IMG/VR virus record: IMGVR_UViG_3300021962_000344 | Span: 1-34,552 of that record | Reading direction: 5' to 3' (one strand) | Length of the DNA: 34,552 nt | DNA from: a virus | In this document: piece after piece, positions 14,910 to 30,633 of the stretch | How positions within the stretch are numbered: position 1 is the stretch's first letter | Layout of the letters: every line of letters starts with the position of its first letter | Notes under the pieces: model-generated | The model's database searches: none | Seen by the model: only the letters and a program-made list of their open reading frames with translations | Told to the model about the DNA's origin: nothing | Translations under genes and position numbers: made by a program

Positions 14910-15317
14910 TTAAAATCTCCAGACTCTAGCGTTTGGGAATGTCACGAATTGCAGTCCATCGCGAGCGAGGAAAGCCGCGACGCTGCCGATGCAGATGCCC
15001 AGCGCGACGCCGTCGCCGCCGTCCTGCGCCACGAGATCGCCGCGACGAGCAAGCGCGGTGGCGATCTTCATTCCTCCAGCTTCATCGACGAGGCGCTCGA
15101 TTCCGCCGCCTCGATTGAGTGCTCGATGCGCCGAGAGCGCGCTTGCGTATTGCCCGCGCCATTGCGCTGCGATGTCGCGGCCGGTTGCGATCTGCACCCA
15201 GTCCGCCGCGAAGAGACAGCAATCATTCGAGCCCCACGCAAAAGCCTCGTGGCGCTTGCGCTCGATGTAAGCCGTGAGCAGGTCCGGCCAGTTATTGCAG
15301 CGGGTAGCCATGTTCAT
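14910..15317 (-). CDS. Tail-associated NlpC/P60-like cell wall hydrolase
   Basis: 135 aa. WGSNDCCLFAADW (28-40) carries the likely catalytic Cys33 or Cys34 at the start of a helix, as in the DUF6950/NlpC-P60-type peptidases encoded next to phage and gene-transfer-agent tail tips. A candidate His follows at about 64, and RRGDLV (about 91-96) is the typical later strand. It probably opens peptidoglycan locally during DNA entry. ATGA overlap with the hub gene. Confidence 0.75.
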   Translation of the reverse strand: MNMATRCNNWPDLLTAYIERKRHEAFAWGSNDCCLFAADWVQIATGRDIAAQWRGQYASALSAHRALNRGGGIERLVDEAGGMKIATALARRGDLVAQDGGDGVALGICIGSVAAFLARDGLQFVTFPNARVWRF

Positions 15318-15943
15318 TCGTAGCCGGTGCGCTCGCTCTCACCGCCGCCTTCGTTCACCGGCGCGACGAGCTTTGCGTTGCCCCAGTAGATTTGCTTTTC
15401 CTGAATCGCCGTGACGAACTCTAGCCCCTTGTCGGACGGGAATAGGTTCTTCTGCTCTTGGTCGGTGTAGCGCACTTCACGCGGGCGGCGGAAGTCCACG
15501 AGCTTGTTCTCGGCGCTCATGCCAATCGTAGCGTTTTGCCCGTCGTCGTTGATGCTCATCACGTCCATGCGCCCAGAGAAGATCGTGACCGGCGACGACA
15601 CCAGTGCACCGCTGGCTTCAAGCGCGCCAAAAAGAACCGAGCACTCCCTGCCCTGATAATTTTCGGTGAGCGCAACGGCCAGCATCGCCGTGGGAACGCC
15701 CGAGAGCTGCATGGAAATGCCGCGCGCCGCGAGGTCCGTCGTCTCCTCAACCGGCGAGATTGAGCCGAGCGTGCCGATTCCAAGATACGCCGTGCTTCCG
15801 ACCGTGATCGTGCCGTAGCCGGTCCAGATGTGCACCGGCGTCGCGAAGGATAGCGAAGCGAGCAGAATCGGCGAAAGCTGCGATGCGCTCACCTCCGTCA
15901 CCATGTCGTTTGTGAGTCCGCGTCCTGCTGTGGTTATGCTCAT
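15314..15943 (-). CDS. Baseplate hub-type tail protein
   Basis: 209 aa, beta-rich. The N-terminal half (FATPVHIWTGYGTITVGSTA, LGSISPVEETTDLAARG) resembles the hub proteins found directly before NlpC-like genes in siphophages and gene transfer agents (DUF2163-like). The start at 15943 overlaps the previous gene by ATGA; a longer in-frame extension would be Arg-rich and overlaps that gene heavily. Confidence 0.65.
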   Translation of the reverse strand: MSITTAGRGLTNDMVTEVSASQLSPILLASLSFATPVHIWTGYGTITVGSTAYLGIGTLGSISPVEETTDLAARGISMQLSGVPTAMLAVALTENYQGRECSVLFGALEASGALVSSPVTIFSGRMDVMSINDDGQNATIGMSAENKLVDFRRPREVRYTDQEQKNLFPSDKGLEFVTAIQEKQIYWGNAKLVAPVNEGGGESERTGYE

Positions 15944-16542
15944 GACTCGACGTCCTCGACGATTGAAAAGCTGATGCCGTAAACGCTCGCCAGTTCTATC
16001 GACCACTCCGTCGTCGGCTGCGCAAGGCGGAAGACGCCTTTTGCCCGAGCGCCAGTCGTTAGACCGTAAACGATCGCCGTGCTTCCTGCGTAGCTTTTGC
16101 GGAGAGCGGGGAAAAGATCAACGGTGCCCACTCCGTTTGCTTGCACGACCTTGTAGTATGACGTGCTGATTTGCAGCCAGTCGCCGACGGCGAACTGCGT
16201 GCTGTTGGTCGTTCCGTTGTAAGTCAGCGTCGTTCCGTTAGCGGTCGCCGTCGCAACGGTCAGCGTGCCAGTAATTGAGCCACGCGGCAGCGGGTTCGCG
16301 TAGTCTTGAAAGTTGAACGTGCCGCGCTGCGCCGACAGCAAGAAGGCGATCATCGTCTCGGCATCCGCGCGAGTCATCGGCGGGCAATCAACCGAGCCGA
16401 GCCACGCTTGGCCTGCGTGGTTGTATTGCTGCGTCTGCAAGGTGAAGGGCGACGTGTTGCGCGACACCGCCGAGACGCCCGTGAGCGACAAGCGCGAGAG
16501 GTAGAACGGATCAGGCGGCGTGAGTGGATAGGTGATGGCCAT
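15940..16542 (-). CDS. Distal tail-type minor tail protein
   Basis: 200 aa. Placed directly after the tape measure and before the hub, where the distal tail protein is encoded. Residues about 60-80 (AETMIAFLLSAQRGTFNFQD) and the C-terminal beta segments (EWSIELASVYGISFSIVED) fit this class. It likely joins tail tube and tip. No exact family recognised. Confidence 0.65.
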   Translation of the reverse strand: MAITYPLTPPDPFYLSRLSLTGVSAVSRNTSPFTLQTQQYNHAGQAWLGSVDCPPMTRADAETMIAFLLSAQRGTFNFQDYANPLPRGSITGTLTVATATANGTTLTYNGTTNSTQFAVGDWLQISTSYYKVVQANGVGTVDLFPALRKSYAGSTAIVYGLTTGARAKGVFRLAQPTTEWSIELASVYGISFSIVEDVES

Positions 16543-18787: not shown

Positions 18788-19219
18788 TTAGTCGGTGGTT
18801 AAATAAATGCAGTTGAACGTATGCCGAGCCGTGCCGAAGCGCCTGTCCTCGTCTGGCTCGATCACATAGTCGACACTCGTCAAATGAAGGTCGCGGCATT
18901 GCCCCCCGAGCGTCACGTCGGCGAGAACTGCGGCCTCCACCGCCGCGCTGCCGGTGTCGAAAAGGTCATCGATTAAATACGTCCCGCTCTCGACGGTGAA
19001 GTAATCGACGATGAGTTGCAGCTGCCGGTATTGCGTGCGGTTGCTCGGCCCGAGCGTGCGCACCTCAATCTGCTCGCTGACCGCATAAACGGCGGCGGCT
19101 GGAAACGAGATGCTTGCGATGGTGTTATTGCGCCCACGAAGGATGTTCGCGGTCGGCACGACGAGCGCGCCGGTGAGAGCGTTGGCCGTCGCGGTGCGGA
19201 TGTTGGTGCGTGTGCTCAT
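18788..19219 (-). CDS. Tail terminator protein
   Basis: 143 aa. The end EPDEDRRFGTARHTFNCIYL resembles tail terminator (gpU-like) proteins, which cap the tail tube and join it to the head. It lies between the tail-completion protein and the tube gene, the normal place. The start at 19219 (ATGA overlap) is preferred over a longer Arg/Gln-rich in-frame extension that lies over the previous gene. Confidence 0.65.
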   Translation of the reverse strand: MSTRTNIRTATANALTGALVVPTANILRGRNNTIASISFPAAAVYAVSEQIEVRTLGPSNRTQYRQLQLIVDYFTVESGTYLIDDLFDTGSAAVEAAVLADVTLGGQCRDLHLTSVDYVIEPDEDRRFGTARHTFNCIYLTTD

Positions 19220-20016
19220 GCGGCTGCTGTTTTGATTGGCATTGCTCCGCCGACGCGGGTGAAGCCGAGATTGACGGCACGGTTGGCGAGGATGGCGGCG
19301 ACTTTCTTCGCGGTCGTTCTGACGCGTGAATTGATGGCCGCGTCGATCATGCGTTGGTAGTTTGGAATCTTCACGTTGTGCGCCGTGGCCTTGATAAACG
19401 GTTGCGGCCCGAAGCTCGATTGTACCGAGCCGAAGCGGATGTTTCCGCCTGCCTGAGCCTTGAGCTTGTCGCTGAATTTCTTGTAGCGAGCGCCGGTAAC
19501 TTTTGCCGATGAGTTCCATCCGCTGACTGTCCAGCCCACGCGGTCCTCCATGATTGATCTGACTCGGCGGAAGTCGGAACCGAACGCGAGAACTCGCGGC
19601 TTGCCCTTTATCCTGCGCCACGGCGTCTGCTGCTCCTTCTTGTATTTCCGAATCGCGTCTTCGTTTTCAAGCAACGGCCTGCCGTAATAGTGCGTCAGGT
19701 TCGGATTGCGGAAAAGCGCGCGCAGCTTCTCCACGTCGCGGTTGCGGACATATCTCGCCATCGACTTGTAGAATCCGCCCTTCGTCGCCTTCGCTTGCAG
19801 GTCTTCGAAAACCAACGGTTCCGCGAGCCTGCTGAAGTCCGCGCGCACCGCGTTCGCGCCCTGCTGCTTGCTCTTGGGCGGCGTGAATTTCACGATGGTC
19901 TGAATCGCGTATTTCGCCTCCTCCTTGATGACCAGCCCGAGGTCCACCTTTGCCGCGTTGGCAAGACGCGCGAGCTGATACTCTAGCCGCGAAAAACTGG
20001 TTTCGATGTCGATCAT
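19216..20016 (-). CDS. Minor tail / tail completion protein (HK97 gp10-like)
   Basis: 266 aa. The beginning (DIETSFSRLEYQLARLANAA) and end (PFIKATAHNVKIPNYQRMID) follow the pattern of gp10-like tail completion proteins, which are usually 120-170 aa. The extra length lies in a basic central part (about 75-180, many Arg/Lys). Placed between connector and terminator genes. Confidence 0.6.
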   Translation of the reverse strand: MIDIETSFSRLEYQLARLANAAKVDLGLVIKEEAKYAIQTIVKFTPPKSKQQGANAVRADFSRLAEPLVFEDLQAKATKGGFYKSMARYVRNRDVEKLRALFRNPNLTHYYGRPLLENEDAIRKYKKEQQTPWRRIKGKPRVLAFGSDFRRVRSIMEDRVGWTVSGWNSSAKVTGARYKKFSDKLKAQAGGNIRFGSVQSSFGPQPFIKATAHNVKIPNYQRMIDAAINSRVRTTAKKVAAILANRAVNLGFTRVGGAMPIKTAAA

Positions 20017-20335: not shown

Positions 20336-20977
20336 CTATGTCGCGCCTGTAAAATAAAACCGCGCGTGCAGCTCTGGCCGGTTCGCGAGGAGCCACGGCT
20401 CCGCGTCCTCGTAGCACCGCTGTGCGTCCTGCCCGCAGGTCTGCGAGCCGACGTGGTGAACGTAGGCCCGCGAGATGAAATGCCGCCGCTTCATGTCGAG
20501 GCATTGCACGTCGTCCGAAAACCAATTTATCGGCGGGAAATCCACCCACGCGTCGCGGTGAATCCACGCGCAAATCGGCGCGATGACCGGCGTCTCGACG
20601 ATGTGCCGCTCCGACTGGTAGCGCAGGAAGTCGATTTTCCCGCGCCCGCTGCGCACGTTCTGCTCGCCGCGCGCGTAGTCCGAGCGCGTCGCGACATAGC
20701 CGAGATCGGGCACGACCTTGCGCAGATGCGCTACATCCGCGAGGAGCACCGCCCACGTCGTCGGCGTGAACACGATGTCGTCGTTGCAAATCAAAATCTC
20801 GTCGTGCCGCTTGAACGCTTCGCGCGCCGCGAAGTTGTAGGCGTCGCCGAAGTTCTTCCCGACCTTGTGATGCACATACCTCTCCACGTCCTGCGGGACG
20901 TAGGCGTTGAGCGAAGCCGTCATCACGTCGAGGCAGGCGCCGTTGACCGTGCAGACGATAATCGCGGGCGTGCTCAT
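20336..20977 (-). CDS. GT-A-like glycosyltransferase, small
   Basis: 213 aa. KNFGDAYNFAAREAFKRHDE (41-60) followed by ILICNDDIVF (61-70) is the nucleotide-sugar region of GT-A glycosyltransferases, with NDD as the metal-binding motif. PPINWFSDD (148-156) may hold the acceptor or catalytic acid. The start at 20977 overlaps the larger glycosyltransferase by ATGA. A much longer in-frame reading (to 21985) is Arg-rich and a shadow of that gene. It ends with TAG, the only functional amber stop seen in the window. Confidence 0.7.
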   Translation of the reverse strand: MSTPAIIVCTVNGACLDVMTASLNAYVPQDVERYVHHKVGKNFGDAYNFAAREAFKRHDEILICNDDIVFTPTTWAVLLADVAHLRKVVPDLGYVATRSDYARGEQNVRSGRGKIDFLRYQSERHIVETPVIAPICAWIHRDAWVDFPPINWFSDDVQCLDMKRRHFISRAYVHHVGSQTCGQDAQRCYEDAEPWLLANRPELHARFYFTGAT

Positions 20978-22359
20978 GGCTTCTTGGCCCCGAGGATTTC
21001 CTTGATGTTCTCCGCGTCGATCAGCGTCACGCCGCTTGCCAGCACGAGCTTGTCCCAGTCGTGCGGCGGCACCATGCCGTCCTCGATGTGCACCGAGATC
21101 ATGGCACGCTCTACGGCTCGCGGTTGTCCCACGTCGTGGATGAACTGCTTGGCCATCGCCATCGTCTCCTTGTCGTCGGGGCGCACGAGAAAGACGTGCT
21201 CGATGGTTTCCGGTTGCGCTGACGTCCCCAGCCACGCCTCGCGGAAGGAGACGGAGCGCGTCGAGTCTCCGAGGGTTTTCTGCGTGAGCCGAATCGCGGG
21301 TTTTTCGTGCTTGTGAAAAGCCCACTGAAGCCCGTCCGCTTTTCTCGGCTGGTCCGCGAGCCGGTAGGACCGCGCAGCGAGATCGAGACCGGCCCAGCCA
21401 TACCACTTGACCTCGTGCGTCCACGGTCGGTCTTTTTCCTTGGGCTCGGGTAGCGACATCATCCGCTCCGCCCAGAAGCTCGCGCGCCTGCCGTCGTTGC
21501 GCTCGAACGCCAGCATGATGACGGAGGCGATGGCCTCGCGGCACCACGGGAAAACCCCGTGCGCACCCATAGCGAATTGCAACGCCTCGCGCCGTGACGC
21601 GACGAGTCGCGCAAGGTTCAGCTGCACCTCGTAGCGGAACGAGTCGTCGAGATTCGGGAAGGAAAGCGCGATGCGGCCGAACTGCTCGGCGGCGGTCTTG
21701 TTGCCGGCGCAGTAGTGTTCTTGGTGGATGTAGAAGTATTGGGTCGCCGACTCCGCGATGCTTCGCCCGAGGATTGCGAGGTTGCGCTTGCGGTTGCTCT
21801 GCTTGATCGACACCGGCTGATGCCGCCAGACTGGCACCTTCCATTCGTTGTGAAGATCGTTCGGCAGCAGGAGCAGGTTTTCGTGGACGTCGTGGTGCCA
21901 GACGCGCCCCGAGGCGAACGCTGTGCGGCGGATGATTCGCTCGCGTTGCAACTTCTTGCCGGTGCCCCGCACGTCGTAGGGGCATCGGAGCATGAGCACG
22001 TCCTCCGTGAGTTCCTTGAGCCTTTCGCGGAGATCCGCCGCATCGGTCAGCACGTCGTCGCAGTCAGCCCAAAGAAGCCAATCGCCGGTGCCTTGGGCGA
22101 AGGCTTGGTTCCGAGCCCTCGCGAACGAATCGACGTGCCGCCACGCCTGCGCAGTAACCCCGTTGCGGTAGTCGGAGAAGACAATCGGGACCGCGTTGCG
22201 CTCGCACCAGTCCCGCGCGAGCTGTTCGGTGTCGTCCGGTTCCTGCGAGCCGATGGCGCGCACCAGTGAGAGTTCGTCGATAATGCCGACGAACGAATCG
22301 AGCATGGTCTTGATGTGCGCGGTCTCGTTGCCGGCAATCACGCAGAGAGAAATCGTCAT
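20974..22359 (-). CDS. Family 2-type glycosyltransferase with helical C-terminal domain
   Basis: 461 aa. SLCVIAGNETAHIKTMLDSF at the N-terminus and WLLWADCDDVL (94-104, metal-binding DxDD) identify a GT-A family 2 glycosyltransferase. WHHDVHENLL follows at about 153-162. The second half (about 200-400) is helical, perhaps TPR-like. It opens the operon that encodes connectors and tail, after the capsid terminator. Likely it modifies a virion protein or the host surface; the substrate cannot be told. GGAGG precedes the start by 10 nt with a CA-rich spacer. Confidence 0.8.
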   Translation of the reverse strand: MTISLCVIAGNETAHIKTMLDSFVGIIDELSLVRAIGSQEPDDTEQLARDWCERNAVPIVFSDYRNGVTAQAWRHVDSFARARNQAFAQGTGDWLLWADCDDVLTDAADLRERLKELTEDVLMLRCPYDVRGTGKKLQRERIIRRTAFASGRVWHHDVHENLLLLPNDLHNEWKVPVWRHQPVSIKQSNRKRNLAILGRSIAESATQYFYIHQEHYCAGNKTAAEQFGRIALSFPNLDDSFRYEVQLNLARLVASRREALQFAMGAHGVFPWCREAIASVIMLAFERNDGRRASFWAERMMSLPEPKEKDRPWTHEVKWYGWAGLDLAARSYRLADQPRKADGLQWAFHKHEKPAIRLTQKTLGDSTRSVSFREAWLGTSAQPETIEHVFLVRPDDKETMAMAKQFIHDVGQPRAVERAMISVHIEDGMVPPHDWDKLVLASGVTLIDAENIKEILGAKKP

Positions 22360-22457: not shown

Positions 22458-23423
22458 TCAGGAATACTGAGTGGTGATAAGCTGACCCGCGTTCGCATTG
22501 ACCACCTTCTCGGCGGTGTATTGCGAGGCGCGCACGATGTTCGACTTGATCGCTTCTTCGCGATAGGTCGAGACGCCGATTGCTGGGCCATACTCGGACC
22601 AGTTGAGCGTGAAGCCTGCGCCACCTCCGAAGAAACCGGCAGACGCCTGCGTGACCGAGCCGACCCAGATAAACGTATTGGCCCAGACATTACCGGCAGC
22701 GAACGCGACACCTTCAGGGGCCGTATCATAAGAAGCCCTACCGATGAGCACTTGGCTGACACCGAACACCTCGGCGGCGGCTTGCGTGCTCGCGTTGAGG
22801 ATGGTGTCAGACGAAATGCCAGCGCCGCGAAGGCGGTTCTGGAACTTCGTGGAAGCGCGGATGCGGGTCCACACTGGGTTTGGGATGATGACGGACAAGT
22901 TCGTGACGCTCTCGCCCTTTGCGAGCAGACGGTCAGCAGCCTCCTGCACGTCAGCGCCGACATCGAACGTCGCTAGATTCGCGGTCGTGTAGGCGGTGCC
23001 GCTGTTGGTCGCGGTAAACGTGGAATTGTCGAACAGTTTCGCAGCAACGCGCAGTTCGTGCGCGAGGAGCAGTTTACGTTTGGCGAGCTTGGCGGCGATG
23101 ACTTCGGCGTCGAAGAATCGGGCGACGTCGAGGGTGACGGTATCGTCCACGGCCTCTTCGTATCCATATTCCAACGCCGTGTAGGTGTCTTGGTTAAACG
23201 CACGCGTGCCGCGAGCGTATGCGCTGTAAGCGGCGCGGTTCTTAACGTCGCTCTTGAGGAGCTGGCCCTCTTTGAGAACGAAGGAAGGGTATTGTCCGGC
23301 GCGCACGGGCACGTCGAGGATGGGCATGGCCTGAACGCCGATGAGTCCGGCCTCATAGTCTTTTGCCTGCTCGACTACACCGGCGATGTCGCCGCGAAAA
23401 ATGGCTGCTGAATTGGTATACAT
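22458..23423 (-). CDS. Major capsid protein
   Basis: 321 aa. Position after the protease and decoration genes, absence of a signal peptide and the composition identify it as the major capsid protein, probably with an HK97 fold. Residues about 85-120 (ALEYGYEEAVDDTVTLDVAR) and 176-190 (VIIPNPVWTRIRAS) are typical of this class in siphophages. Its ATG lies behind an A-rich leader (AAAAAAATCTTACC) with no Shine-Dalgarno, as does the decoration gene. Followed by a strong terminator. Confidence 0.85.
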   Translation of the reverse strand: MYTNSAAIFRGDIAGVVEQAKDYEAGLIGVQAMPILDVPVRAGQYPSFVLKEGQLLKSDVKNRAAYSAYARGTRAFNQDTYTALEYGYEEAVDDTVTLDVARFFDAEVIAAKLAKRKLLLAHELRVAAKLFDNSTFTATNSGTAYTTANLATFDVGADVQEAADRLLAKGESVTNLSVIIPNPVWTRIRASTKFQNRLRGAGISSDTILNASTQAAAEVFGVSQVLIGRASYDTAPEGVAFAAGNVWANTFIWVGSVTQASAGFFGGGAGFTLNWSEYGPAIGVSTYREEAIKSNIVRASQYTAEKVVNANAGQLITTQYS

Positions 23424-23442: not shown

Positions 23443-23793
23443 TTAGAGATTCTTCGGAATCATCTCGATGATTGCACCAGCGTCGGACGCGGTGGTCAGC
23501 GATTTGCCGACAGTGATCGTGCCGGTGATGGCAACTTGGCCGGAGGCCACGCTGAAAACCGTATCGCCGACAGTGACCGGACCAGCGAGCAGAGTGGCCT
23601 TAACGGAATTTCCGCCGAGGAACTGGACGCTGATTTGATCGCCAGAGGCAGCGTCGATCAAAGCGACGCCGTCAGGGAGAGAAGCGGTGGCGGAAAGTCC
23701 GACGCCGCGATTGCTGGAAATGGACACGAGGCGAAACGCGGTGATAGCCGAGTTTGCGACGAACGTGCCCGCATTTTGGAATGAAGTAGCCAT
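23443..23793 (-). CDS. Capsid decoration protein (DUF2190-like)
   Basis: 116 aa, almost all beta. SLPDGVALIDAASGDQISVQ and VTVGDTVFSVASGQV match the small cement/decoration proteins encoded beside the capsid gene. It would stabilise the expanded head. The leader CTAAAAAAACTACC before the ATG resembles that of the capsid gene. Confidence 0.7.
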   Translation of the reverse strand: MATSFQNAGTFVANSAITAFRLVSISSNRGVGLSATASLPDGVALIDAASGDQISVQFLGGNSVKATLLAGPVTVGDTVFSVASGQVAITGTITVGKSLTTASDAGAIIEMIPKNL

Positions 23794-23803
23794 GGTAGTT
23801 TTT

Positions 23804-24730
23804 TTAGAGTTTCACGAGTTCGCCGCCCTGCACGCGCGCACGATAGACGGCGTAAAGGTCAGCATGATTCTTGACCGCGAAGGAGATGGCCGAGGATTTG
23901 TCGCCCTTCAGCTCGGTGGCTTTGGCGGCGACGACGTCCTCGAATTTCTGCGCTTGCGTGACTGGTTTAGGAGCTTCCGCCGAGGCGATCGGGGCGGCGG
24001 GCGCACCGAATGACTTGGCAAATTCTTTGACCGCAGCGAGAGCCGCAGCGTTGGCCGCGAGTTGCACGACCTCAGTCTGTGCGCTCATGGCGGCGGGTTT
24101 CTCTTCAACGGGAGGCAGCGCAGCTTCGAGCTTCGCGAGTTTGTCGTTCATGCTCATCATGGCTGATTGAATCATGCCCTCGATGGCCTTCTTCATGTCG
24201 TCATTCATCGTTTCAATTTTTGCTTTTGATTCTGGCGCGGTCTGGAGTTGCTCCAGCTTGCGCGCAAAAAATCCATTCGGGTTCGCAGCGGGTTCGCTGA
24301 CGAGATCAACCGAGTAGATTTCAGAACACCTCTGCAAAGTCGTGAGCTTGTCCGCGCTCTTTTCCGACGGACCCGAGAACGCAATCGAGAGCCCGAACGT
24401 GTCGGGAATCCGCTCGGCAATCTCCAAAATGTAAGCGCGATGGACCGAGGATTCGAGCAGGTGCAAATCCCCGAGGAGCTTCTCGCCCTCGATGCGCAGC
24501 GTGTCGATCTAGCCGACGATGTCGCCCGCGCCGCCGCTGTGGTCCAGCTTCACCTTGAGCCCGCCCGAGTATTGCTCGGCGGCTTTCTTGACCTGCTCTA
24601 GCGTCTTGTCGTCGATCATCACGCCATGACCGAGAGCCGGTCCTTTGGTAATGAGCGAGACGCCGCGAATGATTCCGGTCTGTGCGTCGATGACGCCTGC
24701 GGAGGCTGCGAATGTGATGACGGGTTCCAT
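23804..24730 (-). pseudogene. Prohead protease interrupted by an in-frame TAG
   Basis: The first part (24509-24730, 73 aa, ends GGAGDIVG) and the rest (24508-23804) are in one frame, separated only by TAG at 24509-24511. Beyond it the family pattern continues: IDTLRIEGEKLLGDLHLLE, then EIAERIPDTFGLSIAFSG. The likely catalytic His64 (KLDHSGG) is before the stop and Ser115 (GLSI) after it, so neither half could work alone. The C-terminal part (about 150-300) is coiled coil and Ala/Pro-rich, like a fused scaffold. The gene is essential in related phages, so this is nonsense mutation, suppression/readthrough or a sequence error. Confidence 0.7.
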
Positions 24731-24753
24731 CGCCTATGCGATGCCCGTCAAAA

Positions 24754-24915
24754 TCAATCCTCCTTCTTTGCCTCGCGCCGCCAGCGCCAGAGCAGAAAAG
24801 CAATGCCGAGGAGCGTGCCGACGAGCGCGGCGACCTCGTTGACCTGCGACAGCGAGACCATCGCGGCGACTGGCGTGGCGGCGGTCAGGACGGCTCGGAT
24901 GTTGTCGGAGTTCAT
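24754..24915 (-). CDS. 53-residue membrane protein
   Basis: 53 aa. One hydrophobic segment (about 28-43, AALVGTLLGIAFLLWRW) and a charged tail RRREAKKED-like end (RWRREAKKED). Overlaps the previous gene by ATGA. Part of a row of small membrane proteins, so possibly a holin or antiholin. Confidence 0.55.
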   Translation of the reverse strand: MNSDNIRAVLTAATPVAAMVSLSQVNEVAALVGTLLGIAFLLWRWRREAKKED

Positions 24916-26234: not shown

Positions 26235-28166
26235 TTAACTTGTGCCGCCAAATGGGAGGTAGAGGAAATTTGCAGAACCGCCTAAACGGTTTTCGATGTA
26301 GATAATGCCATTATTGAAACCGATGTTCATTTTGCCATCCGTTCCAGTTGTTCCGGTCATCGTAGTGCTGTTTGTAATGGTCACGTCTGCCGACTTGACG
26401 ATTGTGTAGAGTAAATAATTCGCTCCTGAACTAAAATAGCCGCCAATAATGGATTGGCTGTAATCGGTATTTAATATCACGAAAAGCCCACGCGAGACCC
26501 CGCCAATGACCAGCGGCGTAAACGTAGCAACGCTATCGTCGTTAATGCCTGTGCGCGTGCCAGCGATCATTGCCGTCACCGCGCCCCCGAAATAGCTCGC
26601 CCCACCCGCCGCCAGTCCCCCTTCGATCACTAGCGCACCCGCGCCTGCCGAGCCTGCGGTGGAAGAGTTAATCTTCAGCCCGCCCACTCCGGTCAAGCCT
26701 GTGTCGCTGGTCGTTCCGATGAGGACGTTGCCGCTCATCAAACTCGTTTTGGTCCCACCTTCATCGGCACTTAAAATTAGCGTATTTGTATAACTGTTGT
26801 ATAGCTCAATCGCGTTGTTTGATGACGCTTTACGCAGTTCAGCATATCTACTATTCCCGTCTGTTAATCTCAGCGCAGCAGTGGATGATCCGGTTGTTTT
26901 AATTTCTAGATTTACGCTGGGCGTCGTCGTCCCGATGCCGACTCCTCCCGTCCCGCTCGGCGTGAGCACGACGTTTTGGTTGGTGCCGCCAGCCGCGAGC
27001 GTCAGGTTGGTCGAGGCGGGGGAGGTGAGGGAGGTTGCCCCGAGCGCGCCCGTGACCGTCAGCCCCGTGCTCGCAACGTCGAGCACCTTCGCCCCGCCAA
27101 TCGCCACGCCGAGATTGTTCGCGCCAATGGCAAAAAGTCCGGTGTCTTGGTCGGCGTTAAACGCGAGGCTGGGATTTCCGACAGAGCCCGCAGCCGCGTG
27201 AACGCTGCCGGTCGGGGTAATCGTGCCGGTCACCGCGAGTCCCGTCGAGCTGATCGCCGCGCGAGCAACTCCGCTCGTCGCAAATCCGATTGCATTTGCC
27301 GCGCTGGAATAAAGTCCGGTTGTCGGGTAGTTCGTGTAATTCAGCGAAGGCGCCGCCGCCGTGCCGTCATCGAGCGTGATGTTGCCGTCGGTCGCGTTGA
27401 TCGTGATCGAGCCCGCGCCGTTGGAAATAGAAATGCCCGTGCCAGCGGTGAGCGTCGAGTTAACGAAGCCCGAGCCGTTGCCGATGAGAAGCTGTCCATT
27501 GCTCGGCACCGACACAAGGTCGGTCAGCGAGGTAACGCCGCCCCCGCCCCCGTTGCCGCGCGCTGCGTTCAGCGTCCAGTCCCCAGCCGTGCGGCTCGGG
27601 CGCTCGCGGTTGCCGTCGATGTTCGACACGAAGCTGTCGCCGTTGATCGTGACCAAGTCGAGCCGCTGATACGTTTTATCGGGCATCCACCGGCCGCGAG
27701 GATTCAGCCCGCGAGGTTCGGCGAACTCCTTGCGAAGCTGGTCGATTTCGCCCGCGCGCGGGAAGCGCGAGAGTTCGTCGGTGACGATTTCCTTCACGGC
27801 GTGCGTGAGCATTGATGCCGCGTCCTCGATGCGCGCCTCGGCCTTCGCGAGCAGATTCGCGTTCTCCGCGCGCTCGGCCATGAGCACCGAGTATTTCGCG
27901 GCGGTTGTGACCTCAAGCTGCTTCGATAGCTGCTCGACTTTCGCAGCGAGCGCCGCGCCGGTCTTCGCGTGTTCGTCGGTCGCACGCGCGCGGCAGAACT
28001 CTTCTAGCTCGGTGCGAATCTGCGGCTCGGCCTCCTCGAATGTGCGCTCGATTTCCGCGTTGAGATGCTCGCGCAGAGTAGGCAGTTGCTCCACGAGTTC
28101 GCGAAGCTCGGTGCGTTGCACGATTGCCAACTCAATCAGCCGTTCGATTTGTGTCTGGGTGTCCAT
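26235..28166 (-). CDS. Fibre-like virion protein
   Basis: 643 aa. Residues about 1-150 are coiled coil. At about 155-200 lies a small carbohydrate-binding-like domain (MPDKTYQRLDLVTINGDSFV, then WTL). A Gly linker follows, then repeated beta segments typical of trimeric fibres (GTGISISNGAGSITINATDG, GVGIGTTTPSVNLEIKT). The end is a compact beta domain. Such proteins bind sugars on the host. It lies right after the portal gene, not with the tail genes, so it may be a head or neck fibre. Confidence 0.75.
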   Translation of the reverse strand: MDTQTQIERLIELAIVQRTELRELVEQLPTLREHLNAEIERTFEEAEPQIRTELEEFCRARATDEHAKTGAALAAKVEQLSKQLEVTTAAKYSVLMAERAENANLLAKAEARIEDAASMLTHAVKEIVTDELSRFPRAGEIDQLRKEFAEPRGLNPRGRWMPDKTYQRLDLVTINGDSFVSNIDGNRERPSRTAGDWTLNAARGNGGGGGVTSLTDLVSVPSNGQLLIGNGSGFVNSTLTAGTGISISNGAGSITINATDGNITLDDGTAAAPSLNYTNYPTTGLYSSAANAIGFATSGVARAAISSTGLAVTGTITPTGSVHAAAGSVGNPSLAFNADQDTGLFAIGANNLGVAIGGAKVLDVASTGLTVTGALGATSLTSPASTNLTLAAGGTNQNVVLTPSGTGGVGIGTTTPSVNLEIKTTGSSTAALRLTDGNSRYAELRKASSNNAIELYNSYTNTLILSADEGGTKTSLMSGNVLIGTTSDTGLTGVGGLKINSSTAGSAGAGALVIEGGLAAGGASYFGGAVTAMIAGTRTGINDDSVATFTPLVIGGVSRGLFVILNTDYSQSIIGGYFSSGANYLLYTIVKSADVTITNSTTMTGTTGTDGKMNIGFNNGIIYIENRLGGSANFLYLPFGGTS

Positions 28167-28170
28167 TTTG

Positions 28171-30633
28171 TTAAAGAGTTTTTTCGGTTGGCTTTGCGAG
28201 TTCGATGATGCTTTTGCCGTTCAAAATTGGCTTTGCGCTTTCCGCGACTCGATCATTCACGTCGCGCCGAAAGTGCGTAATGGCTTCAATCCAATCCGTC
28301 GCCGACATCTTTTTTTCCGATCTTGCTGGATCGCTCGCCACCGCGCGCGCGTCGAACTCGATGCGCGCATCGACTGGCGCGGAGTTCGTCTGCTTCTTTT
28401 CCGCCTTGTTCAGCCGCTCGACGATGGCCGTGGCCCACGAATAGCCCTCGTCACCGCCCCAGCCGTTCCACGCTTGCCAGCCCTTGCCCTGCTGGTCCCA
28501 CGTCTCGCCTTGCTTGTCGGCCTCGTGGCGGTCGAAAAAGGCTTTCATCCGCCGCACGGTATCCTCCGACATCGGACGCTTGTTGATGAGATCGCGAGCG
28601 CGCGCGATGCCAACGCTGGTCATCCCGCGCTGTGACATCGGTTTCTTTTCGCGGATAGCGAGCGCGCGGCGCGCGTTGTCGGCCATTCCGTTTGTCGGGA
28701 TGTAAGAGCCGTCCGCGAAGTTGATCGTGACGAGGTTTGAATCCTCGTGCGCGCGAGCAAGTCGGATGCGGTGGTGCATCGAGGAAGCTGATACTTTCGA
28801 CGGCTGTTTCGGTAGTCCCGCAACGGAACCGGCGACCTTGCTTGCGGATTCTTTCGCCATGCCAGCGGAGACCATGAGCGTCTCGGCTGCTTCGGACGTG
28901 AGATCGCCCGCGCGTAAATTCTCGAGGATGGAGAGCACCGCCGCAATCTGCGCGCCGTTGAGCGGTGCGAGTTCGGGCGACACATCAGGGAAGGACTCGA
29001 CACCTGCGATAGCGGCCACGTCCGTCGATTCGCCGCCCGTCGCTGAAGCCGTGACGCTCGCCGCCTGCGCCTCTGCCGCGCTGGCTCCGACCGCGTCGCC
29101 TGCTGCGGCTGCGGCTGCGGGCGTGCTCGGAAGCGAGTTTGTCGTGAGCCGAATCGCGGTCTCGGGCACGCCGTATTTTTCGGCGAGCTGCTTCACGTAA
29201 GCGGCCTCGATCGCGATCTGCTCTAGGCGCGTGAAGGCGTCGGTGCCTTCTTCGGCCGCGATTTCTTGCAGCGACTTCGCGCCCTGCCGATTCTCGTTCA
29301 TGTTCGCGGCGCTCTCGCGGCCCACGTCGATTGAGAGCTTCGCAGGGAAACGCCACTCACCGCAGGTCGCGCGGCGCAGCGCGTGCACCATCGTCTCGCC
29401 CGCGAGCAGCGGAGGCGGCGGGATTTCTCCGCGCGCGATGGCGTCGAGAATCACGGCATCCTTGATCGGGTCGAGAACCTTGTCGGTAAGCACGCCTTGC
29501 TGGCGGGTGAAGACGCGGTCGGCTGCGGCGAACTCGGCGCGGACGCTTGGCCCCTTAAACTCGCTTGTGCCGAATAACACTCCCTCGGGGATGCCCACCG
29601 AAAGACTTATTTCGTGCATTAAATGTTGGACGAAACCTGTAAACGCCTGCGACGGACGCGAGGGCATGACCTCGACGCGGTCCGAGTTCTGGAAGTAGCG
29701 AATCATGCCCACCTCGGTCAGCTCGTTCTTCTGCTGCTGTCCGCTCGGGAGCGAGAGCGCAGGGTTTGGCTGGAACAGATTGCGCGGGTTGGCGGTGCCT
29801 CGGTCGTTGAAGATGAGCGCGGCCTGCTGCGATGAGAAACGCACGCCCGCTTTCTCGGCTTGCAGGATGTCGTGAAGCATCCGCGCGGTCTGAATCCCGC
29901 TCGCGAGATCAGACACGCCTCTGTATTGGTCCACACGATTTGGATCAAAAAAGTGGCAGAACTGATTTGCTGGGATGTCCTCCGCGCCGAAATAAACGCC
30001 GTCGCGCGTGACGCGGAAAATTCGGTAAGCCACCGGCTGGCCGAAGTCGTTCGTGATGATTCCTTGAAAGTAGTTGTTCGACGCGACCGCCGTGTCGTTC
30101 GGATTTCCGATGCGCGTCGCGGGCACGAGTTGGAGCTTGAGCCCTTCGCCGCTGCGACGAATCACAAAGCCGCAATCGCCGTCCACCGGACGCTCCTCGG
30201 CGGCGAGCTGCACCAATTTCTTGAACGAGTGCCGGTTCGTCACGTCGCAGTTTTTGCACCACGCGTGAAAATACTCTGAAATGATTTGGTTGTAATCATG
30301 ATCCCCAGTCGTCGGCGAGTATTCATGCGGCGTCAGGTAGAGCCCGAACTTGCGCGCGACTTCACGAATCTCAGGAGCGTTGTCCACCAGATCGCGCGCT
30401 TCATACATGAGCACCACTCGGTCCCGCTGATTCTGCGAGCTCTCGACCGGCTGCGCGTATTGCTTCGGAGCGTAGAGCCGATTGGTCCGCGCTGCGTTGT
30501 ATTCGAAAAGTGACTTGGCGACGCGAGCCTCTAGCCGTTTCAGCGCCCACGTCGGTGCGATGTTTTCCAGCGCGCGGTCGAGCCACGGCTTTTGGGCGAT
30601 CAATTTTGACGCGTCGAAAATGTCGTTTTCCAT
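28171..30633 (-). CDS. Portal protein with unknown C-terminal domain
   Basis: 820 aa; lambda gpB is 533. The first 500 residues are lambda-type portal: RDLVDNAPEIREVARKFGLY, the GDCGFVIRRSGEGLKLQLVP stretch, and GVLFGTSEFKGPSVRAEFAA. After an Ala-rich linker (about 515-560) comes a second part with SVGIARARDLINKRPMS and RMKAFFDRHEADKQGETW, then WNGWGGDEGYSWA (about 650-745). This domain recurs in phage head modules as part of other proteins, without known function. The portal forms the 12-mer DNA gate of the head. The start lies 5 nt after the gpW-like gene. Confidence 0.85.
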   Translation of the reverse strand: MENDIFDASKLIAQKPWLDRALENIAPTWALKRLEARVAKSLFEYNAARTNRLYAPKQYAQPVESSQNQRDRVVLMYEARDLVDNAPEIREVARKFGLYLTPHEYSPTTGDHDYNQIISEYFHAWCKNCDVTNRHSFKKLVQLAAEERPVDGDCGFVIRRSGEGLKLQLVPATRIGNPNDTAVASNNYFQGIITNDFGQPVAYRIFRVTRDGVYFGAEDIPANQFCHFFDPNRVDQYRGVSDLASGIQTARMLHDILQAEKAGVRFSSQQAALIFNDRGTANPRNLFQPNPALSLPSGQQQKNELTEVGMIRYFQNSDRVEVMPSRPSQAFTGFVQHLMHEISLSVGIPEGVLFGTSEFKGPSVRAEFAAADRVFTRQQGVLTDKVLDPIKDAVILDAIARGEIPPPPLLAGETMVHALRRATCGEWRFPAKLSIDVGRESAANMNENRQGAKSLQEIAAEEGTDAFTRLEQIAIEAAYVKQLAEKYGVPETAIRLTTNSLPSTPAAAAAAGDAVGASAAEAQAASVTASATGGESTDVAAIAGVESFPDVSPELAPLNGAQIAAVLSILENLRAGDLTSEAAETLMVSAGMAKESASKVAGSVAGLPKQPSKVSASSMHHRIRLARAHEDSNLVTINFADGSYIPTNGMADNARRALAIREKKPMSQRGMTSVGIARARDLINKRPMSEDTVRRMKAFFDRHEADKQGETWDQQGKGWQAWNGWGGDEGYSWATAIVERLNKAEKKQTNSAPVDARIEFDARAVASDPARSEKKMSATDWIEAITHFRRDVNDRVAESAKPILNGKSIIELAKPTEKTL

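Follow-up and report, generated by a model that had tools for sequence, protein, structure and literature searches.

The gene for a putative prohead protease in an environmental virus record carries an amber codon in its reading frame, which raises the question of whether this stop is read through, divides the gene into two working parts, or is a one-off change in a single genome or its sequence. We analysed the 34,552 bases of the record (hereafter the window; G+C 0.59), in which the minus strand carries head and tail genes. The protease gene is located between the portal and major capsid genes. Its open reading frame (24730-23804, minus strand) spans 308 codons with no frame shift, and its sole internal stop is a TAG. 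The first-pass annotation had claimed that a lone TAG splits an otherwise intact protease frame, and this was confirmed, with homology continuing on both sides of the stop.

Table 1. Positions of the interrupted gene, its parts and the neighbouring late genes in the window.
Feature	Position	Strand	Basis or remark
Head-maturation protease-scaffold gene, 308 codons, TAG at codon 74	23804..24730	-	Continuous frame, 80 intact relatives, profile and fold matches
In-frame TAG, codon 74	24509..24511	-	Tyr or Phe in all relatives
Upstream piece, 73 codons, contains His64	24512..24730	-	Frame reading
Downstream piece, same frame, contains Ser115 and scaffold-like C-terminal part	23804..24508	-	Frame reading
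Codon of His64, likely catalytic	24539..24541	-	Invariant in both alignments (56 and 33 sequences)
Codon of Ser115, likely catalytic	24386..24388	-	Invariant in both alignments (56 and 33 sequences)
ATG of codon 175, likely nested scaffold start	24206..24208	-	Invariant ATG and A-rich leader directly upstream (24206-24251); inference
Terminase gene	32759-30903	-	Among the head and tail genes
Portal gene	30633-28171	-	Pfam lambda family
Scaffold/decoration-like head gene, downstream of protease	23443..23793	-	phrog_673 head scaffolding protein, E 8.9e-12
Major capsid protein gene	22458..23423	-	phrog_1005 major head protein, E 1.2e-28
Gene with terminal TAG (20336-20338)	20336..20977	-	20 relatives terminate in TAA

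Identity of the interrupted gene

Searches with the protease returned nothing above the cut-off in Pfam, no match at E 1e-5 in the phage database, no match by sequence among solved structures, and only a weak head-protease match in PHROGs (E 0.025). When matches at E up to 5 were accepted, the phage database yielded 25 records, and each of the 15 listed carried a head-protease or scaffold-protein annotation. Profile comparisons gave E 2.7e-06 with annotated phage head proteases and E 7.5e-07 with 20 of their viral-contig relatives; the LDHS motif and a serine motif were aligned in the comparisons with phage head proteases. H64 and S115 were unchanged in 56 aligned sequences. A joint alignment of 33 sequences, which extends to about 20% identity and includes PHROG 976-type proteases, retained only seven invariant columns (L62, H64, S65, G73, L85, S115 and P147), and the amber codon directly follows the invariant G73.

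A full-length model from 56 close sequences had low confidence (pLDDT 42) and gave an uninformative PDB search, and it was set aside for a model of residues 1-165, which was built with distant relatives and with the TAG read as Tyr (pLDDT 70, pTM 0.69). Foldseek identified T4 gp21 (5jbl) as the best solved match of this model (E 2.1e-04, TM 0.53); the 5jbl chains were the only PDB matches at E <= 0.001, herpesvirus assemblins were among the next solved-structure matches, and many prohead proteases were matched in BFVD. The predicted residues 1-165 therefore resemble the T4 gp21 capsid assembly protease and the herpesvirus assemblins in fold, but differ from them in having no sequence-level match to solved structures, and the confidence of the model was moderate.

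The PHROG 976 head-maturation proteases, found in the Bacillus Andromedavirus phages Finn and Bolokhovo, Bacillus phage 276BB001 and Staphylococcus phage MVC_VPHSA1, have aligned His and Ser motifs, a long C-terminal scaffold-like tail, and the same gene order of protease, scaffold/DUF2190-like gene and major capsid gene. In each of the four regions inspected, the next gene after the protease is of similar size and either scaffold/DUF2190-like or hypothetical, and beyond it lies the major capsid gene or its position. In contrast to these likenesses, identity is only about 20%, the window protein had no PHROG 976 match of its own (hmmscan), and the stop at codon 74 belongs to the window copy. 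Because profile matches, shared motifs and the fold match agree, the first-pass naming of a prohead protease-scaffold gene was right. Sequence comparison and modelling thus support the gene product as a head-maturation (prohead) protease with a scaffold-like C-terminal part and predicted protease activity. The amber codon falls between His64 and Ser115, so that the two likely catalytic residues indeed lie on opposite sides of the stop, as had been proposed.

Codon 74 in relatives and the age of the stop

The read-through protein could be aligned over its whole length with 80 viral contigs (tblastn, 82-97% identity), and not one of the 80 had a stop; codon 74 was TAC, TAT or TTT in every one. 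Across all fetched loci, the 79 distinct alleles encoded Tyr (69) or Phe (10) at this position and never a stop, which answered the earlier proposal to compare the codon in relatives. A viral-contig scan, which may not cover records very close to that of the window, found no TAA, TAG, TGA or TGG in the codon 74 context. Judged by this collection, TAG at this codon is private to a single metagenomic contig. The frame was continuous in all relatives, and the two truly separate genes that the first-pass annotation had considered as a counter-case were absent.

Internal stops were also absent from the relatives' copies of the protease, decoration, major capsid, glycosyltransferase, portal and terminase genes. 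Because no relative's core-gene copy has one, the stop at codon 74 is more than chance. Internal stops seen in the relatives' copies of 18788-19621 and 15314-16006 were rejected as interruptions, since these starts were called too early: similarity to PHROGs sets in only at residue 135 and residue 29, respectively. The call of the tail-terminator ORF 18788-19621 is thus too long, as stops occur in relatives within its first 95 codons, and residue 135 is an ATG at about 19219.

Within the window, comparison with relatives showed no other interrupted gene among the core genes checked, in agreement with the earlier statement that no further large gene has an internal TAG. Private amino-acid changes in the decoration, capsid, glycosyltransferase and portal genes were at or near the background of other contigs. 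With the checked core genes intact and private changes at or near background, the stop fits one isolated event and points neither to prophage decay nor to an assembly of low overall quality.

The 30 nearest relatives over the site shared 88-92% DNA identity across 1.3 to 8 kilobases. Relative to the nearest of them (L002), dN/dS was 0.018 before the stop and 0.076 after it, which shows strong purifying selection on both sides. Only two or three codons of the window protease are private, the stop being one. Since private codons are so few and purifying selection is strong, the stop must be recent on any reading.

Because every one of the 79 distinct alleles from relatives encodes an amino acid at the site, a one-off mutation or sequence error with no special decoding is the most likely explanation. 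We consider it very probable that the stop is private to this one metagenomic contig and reflects either an isolated nonsense substitution or an error in a consensus base. A single-base change would have turned a conserved Tyr codon of the protease into TAG. A consensus-base error in the metagenome assembly has roughly an even chance of being the cause, and a very recent, real nonsense mutation in the sampled phage genome has a chance a little under even. The first-pass annotation had left room for suppression as well as simple mutation; the mutation half stands, with sequence error as an equal candidate, and the suppression half is not supported. No evidence favours a functional role of the stop in this phage lineage; the codon itself is certainly in the record.

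Suppression, recoding and gene splitting

If the amber codon were read through by a suppressor tRNA of the host, or of the phage beyond the contig, a full-length protease would be made. The downstream frame is intact and conserved, as this explanation would have it, and UAG suppressor tRNAs are used by some phages (PMC11210395). In a study on Salmonella phage SPN3US, amber alleles of the prohead protease gene work in suppressing laboratory hosts, where maturation of the mutant was normal (PMC7411985). These gene 245 mutants are similar to the present case in having a nonsense codon in a prohead protease gene; they differ in being laboratory mutants with a known suppressing host, whereas the stop studied here comes from one environmental contig. 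A search for the host with the protease alignment and the terminase found no relative in species-representative genomes, and a host amber suppressor is formally possible.

The window, possibly an incomplete contig, contained no tRNA gene, nor did the contigs of seven long relatives; accordingly, no suppressor tRNA with a CUA anticodon, for which the first-pass annotation had advised a search, was found in either. Rfam gave no match in the window. The absence of tRNA genes, of an in-frame TAG in any other checked core gene and of a stop in relatives, together with the use of TAG as a terminator in the same window, argues against read-through, to which we assign a slim chance. Slimmer still is the chance of an amber-suppressing host in which UAG is tolerated, or used to keep the protease low versus scaffold and capsid, with the scaffold made from the nested start at 24208.

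The use of TAG as a terminator also bears on a second possibility, namely that TAG has become a sense codon in this phage, as it is in translation table 15. The first-pass annotation had called TAG rare here. It is indeed rare as a terminator in the window, a point in favour of reassignment, but it still ends a real gene: 20336-20977 terminates in TAG at the very codon where 20 relatives have TAA (three relatives have TAG), indicating that TAG acts as a stop here. The terminase of one relative likewise ends in TAG, and those of the others end in TAA or TGA. TAG-recoded phages (crAss-like phages and Lak megaphages; translation table 15) are similar in having an in-frame TAG in a late gene. They have many such genes, with in-frame TAG in 41 ORFs of phAss-1 (PMC10607447), and a survey of table-15 phages reported a CUA suppressor tRNA in about half of them (PMC11210395); neither feature was seen in the window. 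Here, in contrast, a single TAG in one gene of one contig was found, the one at 24509 being the only in-frame TAG among the core genes compared. Relatives at about 90% DNA identity have no in-frame TAG in the protease gene, the suppressor tRNA was not found in the window or the seven long relatives, and the probability of reassignment is close to nil. The room that the first-pass annotation had left for suppression is thus not supported, given the sense codon in relatives, the lack of tRNA genes in the window and seven long relatives, the terminal TAG of 20336-20977 and the absence of another in-frame TAG in the checked core genes. More generally, the case cautions against inferring recoding from a single in-frame stop in one phage contig of metagenomic origin if every relative encodes an amino acid at that position.

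A purposeful split, in which the two pieces would be made separately by re-initiation and work together or apart, has a very slight probability. Start-like in-frame codons do follow the stop, the first being a TTG at 24466, 15 codons on, with a weak ribosome-binding match (-5.7 kcal/mol), and the ATG at 24208 resembles a real internal start. However, the arrangement is absent from all relatives, it separates His64 from Ser115, and too little time has passed since the stop arose for such an arrangement to have evolved. In the predicted fold, codon 74 also lies inside a continuous long strand (residues 71-81), which argues against a split at this point.

Consequences of the stop and the surrounding late genes

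If the isolated stop is real, translation would end after 73 residues. No active protease would then be expected, because His64 and Ser115 end on separate pieces. For SPN3US, head formation is described as severely impeded without the prohead protease (PMC7411985). A genome with this stop would depend on help from an intact phage sharing its cell or on a host that suppresses amber codons; if real and suppressed, the stop would make a gene for capsid maturation conditionally lethal in a natural phage.

The scaffold could still be made from the ATG at 24208 and would be spared unless through polarity. Within the protease gene, 20-base stretches with at least 10 A occur only directly before this ATG, and of 63 distinct relatives, 53 likewise have the most A-rich stretch of the gene at this place. 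The decoration and capsid genes, too, have A-rich leaders that lack Shine-Dalgarno matches. These features suggest that a nested scaffold protein starts at codon 175, in the manner of lambda C/Nu3.

The protease ATG is kept in all 45 relatives listed in a comparison of the upstream region. A second in-frame TAG (24734-24736), two codons before this ATG, was not counted as belonging to the gene, because TAG, TAA and TTG all occur at this place among relatives. It is the last codon of a short frame (TTG ACG GGC ATC GCA TAG) that follows GGAGG just before the protease ATG, within 24731-24765. An inverted repeat, CATCGC...GCGATG, spans the protease start codon.

Several late genes lack Shine-Dalgarno matches: the starts at 28166, 25633, 23793 and 23423 have A-rich leaders, some with ACC before the ATG. 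Strong Shine-Dalgarno matches were found at the gene starts 22359, 7529 and 1370, and this mixture of leader types may give a clue to the host group. Immediately after the capsid gene come a family 2 glycosyltransferase gene (20974-22359), kept in many relatives, and the gene 20336-20977. The first 527 residues of the portal (28171-30633) are about 93% identical to those of relative L088, whereas the C-terminal third is only about 52% identical, suggesting a swapped module.
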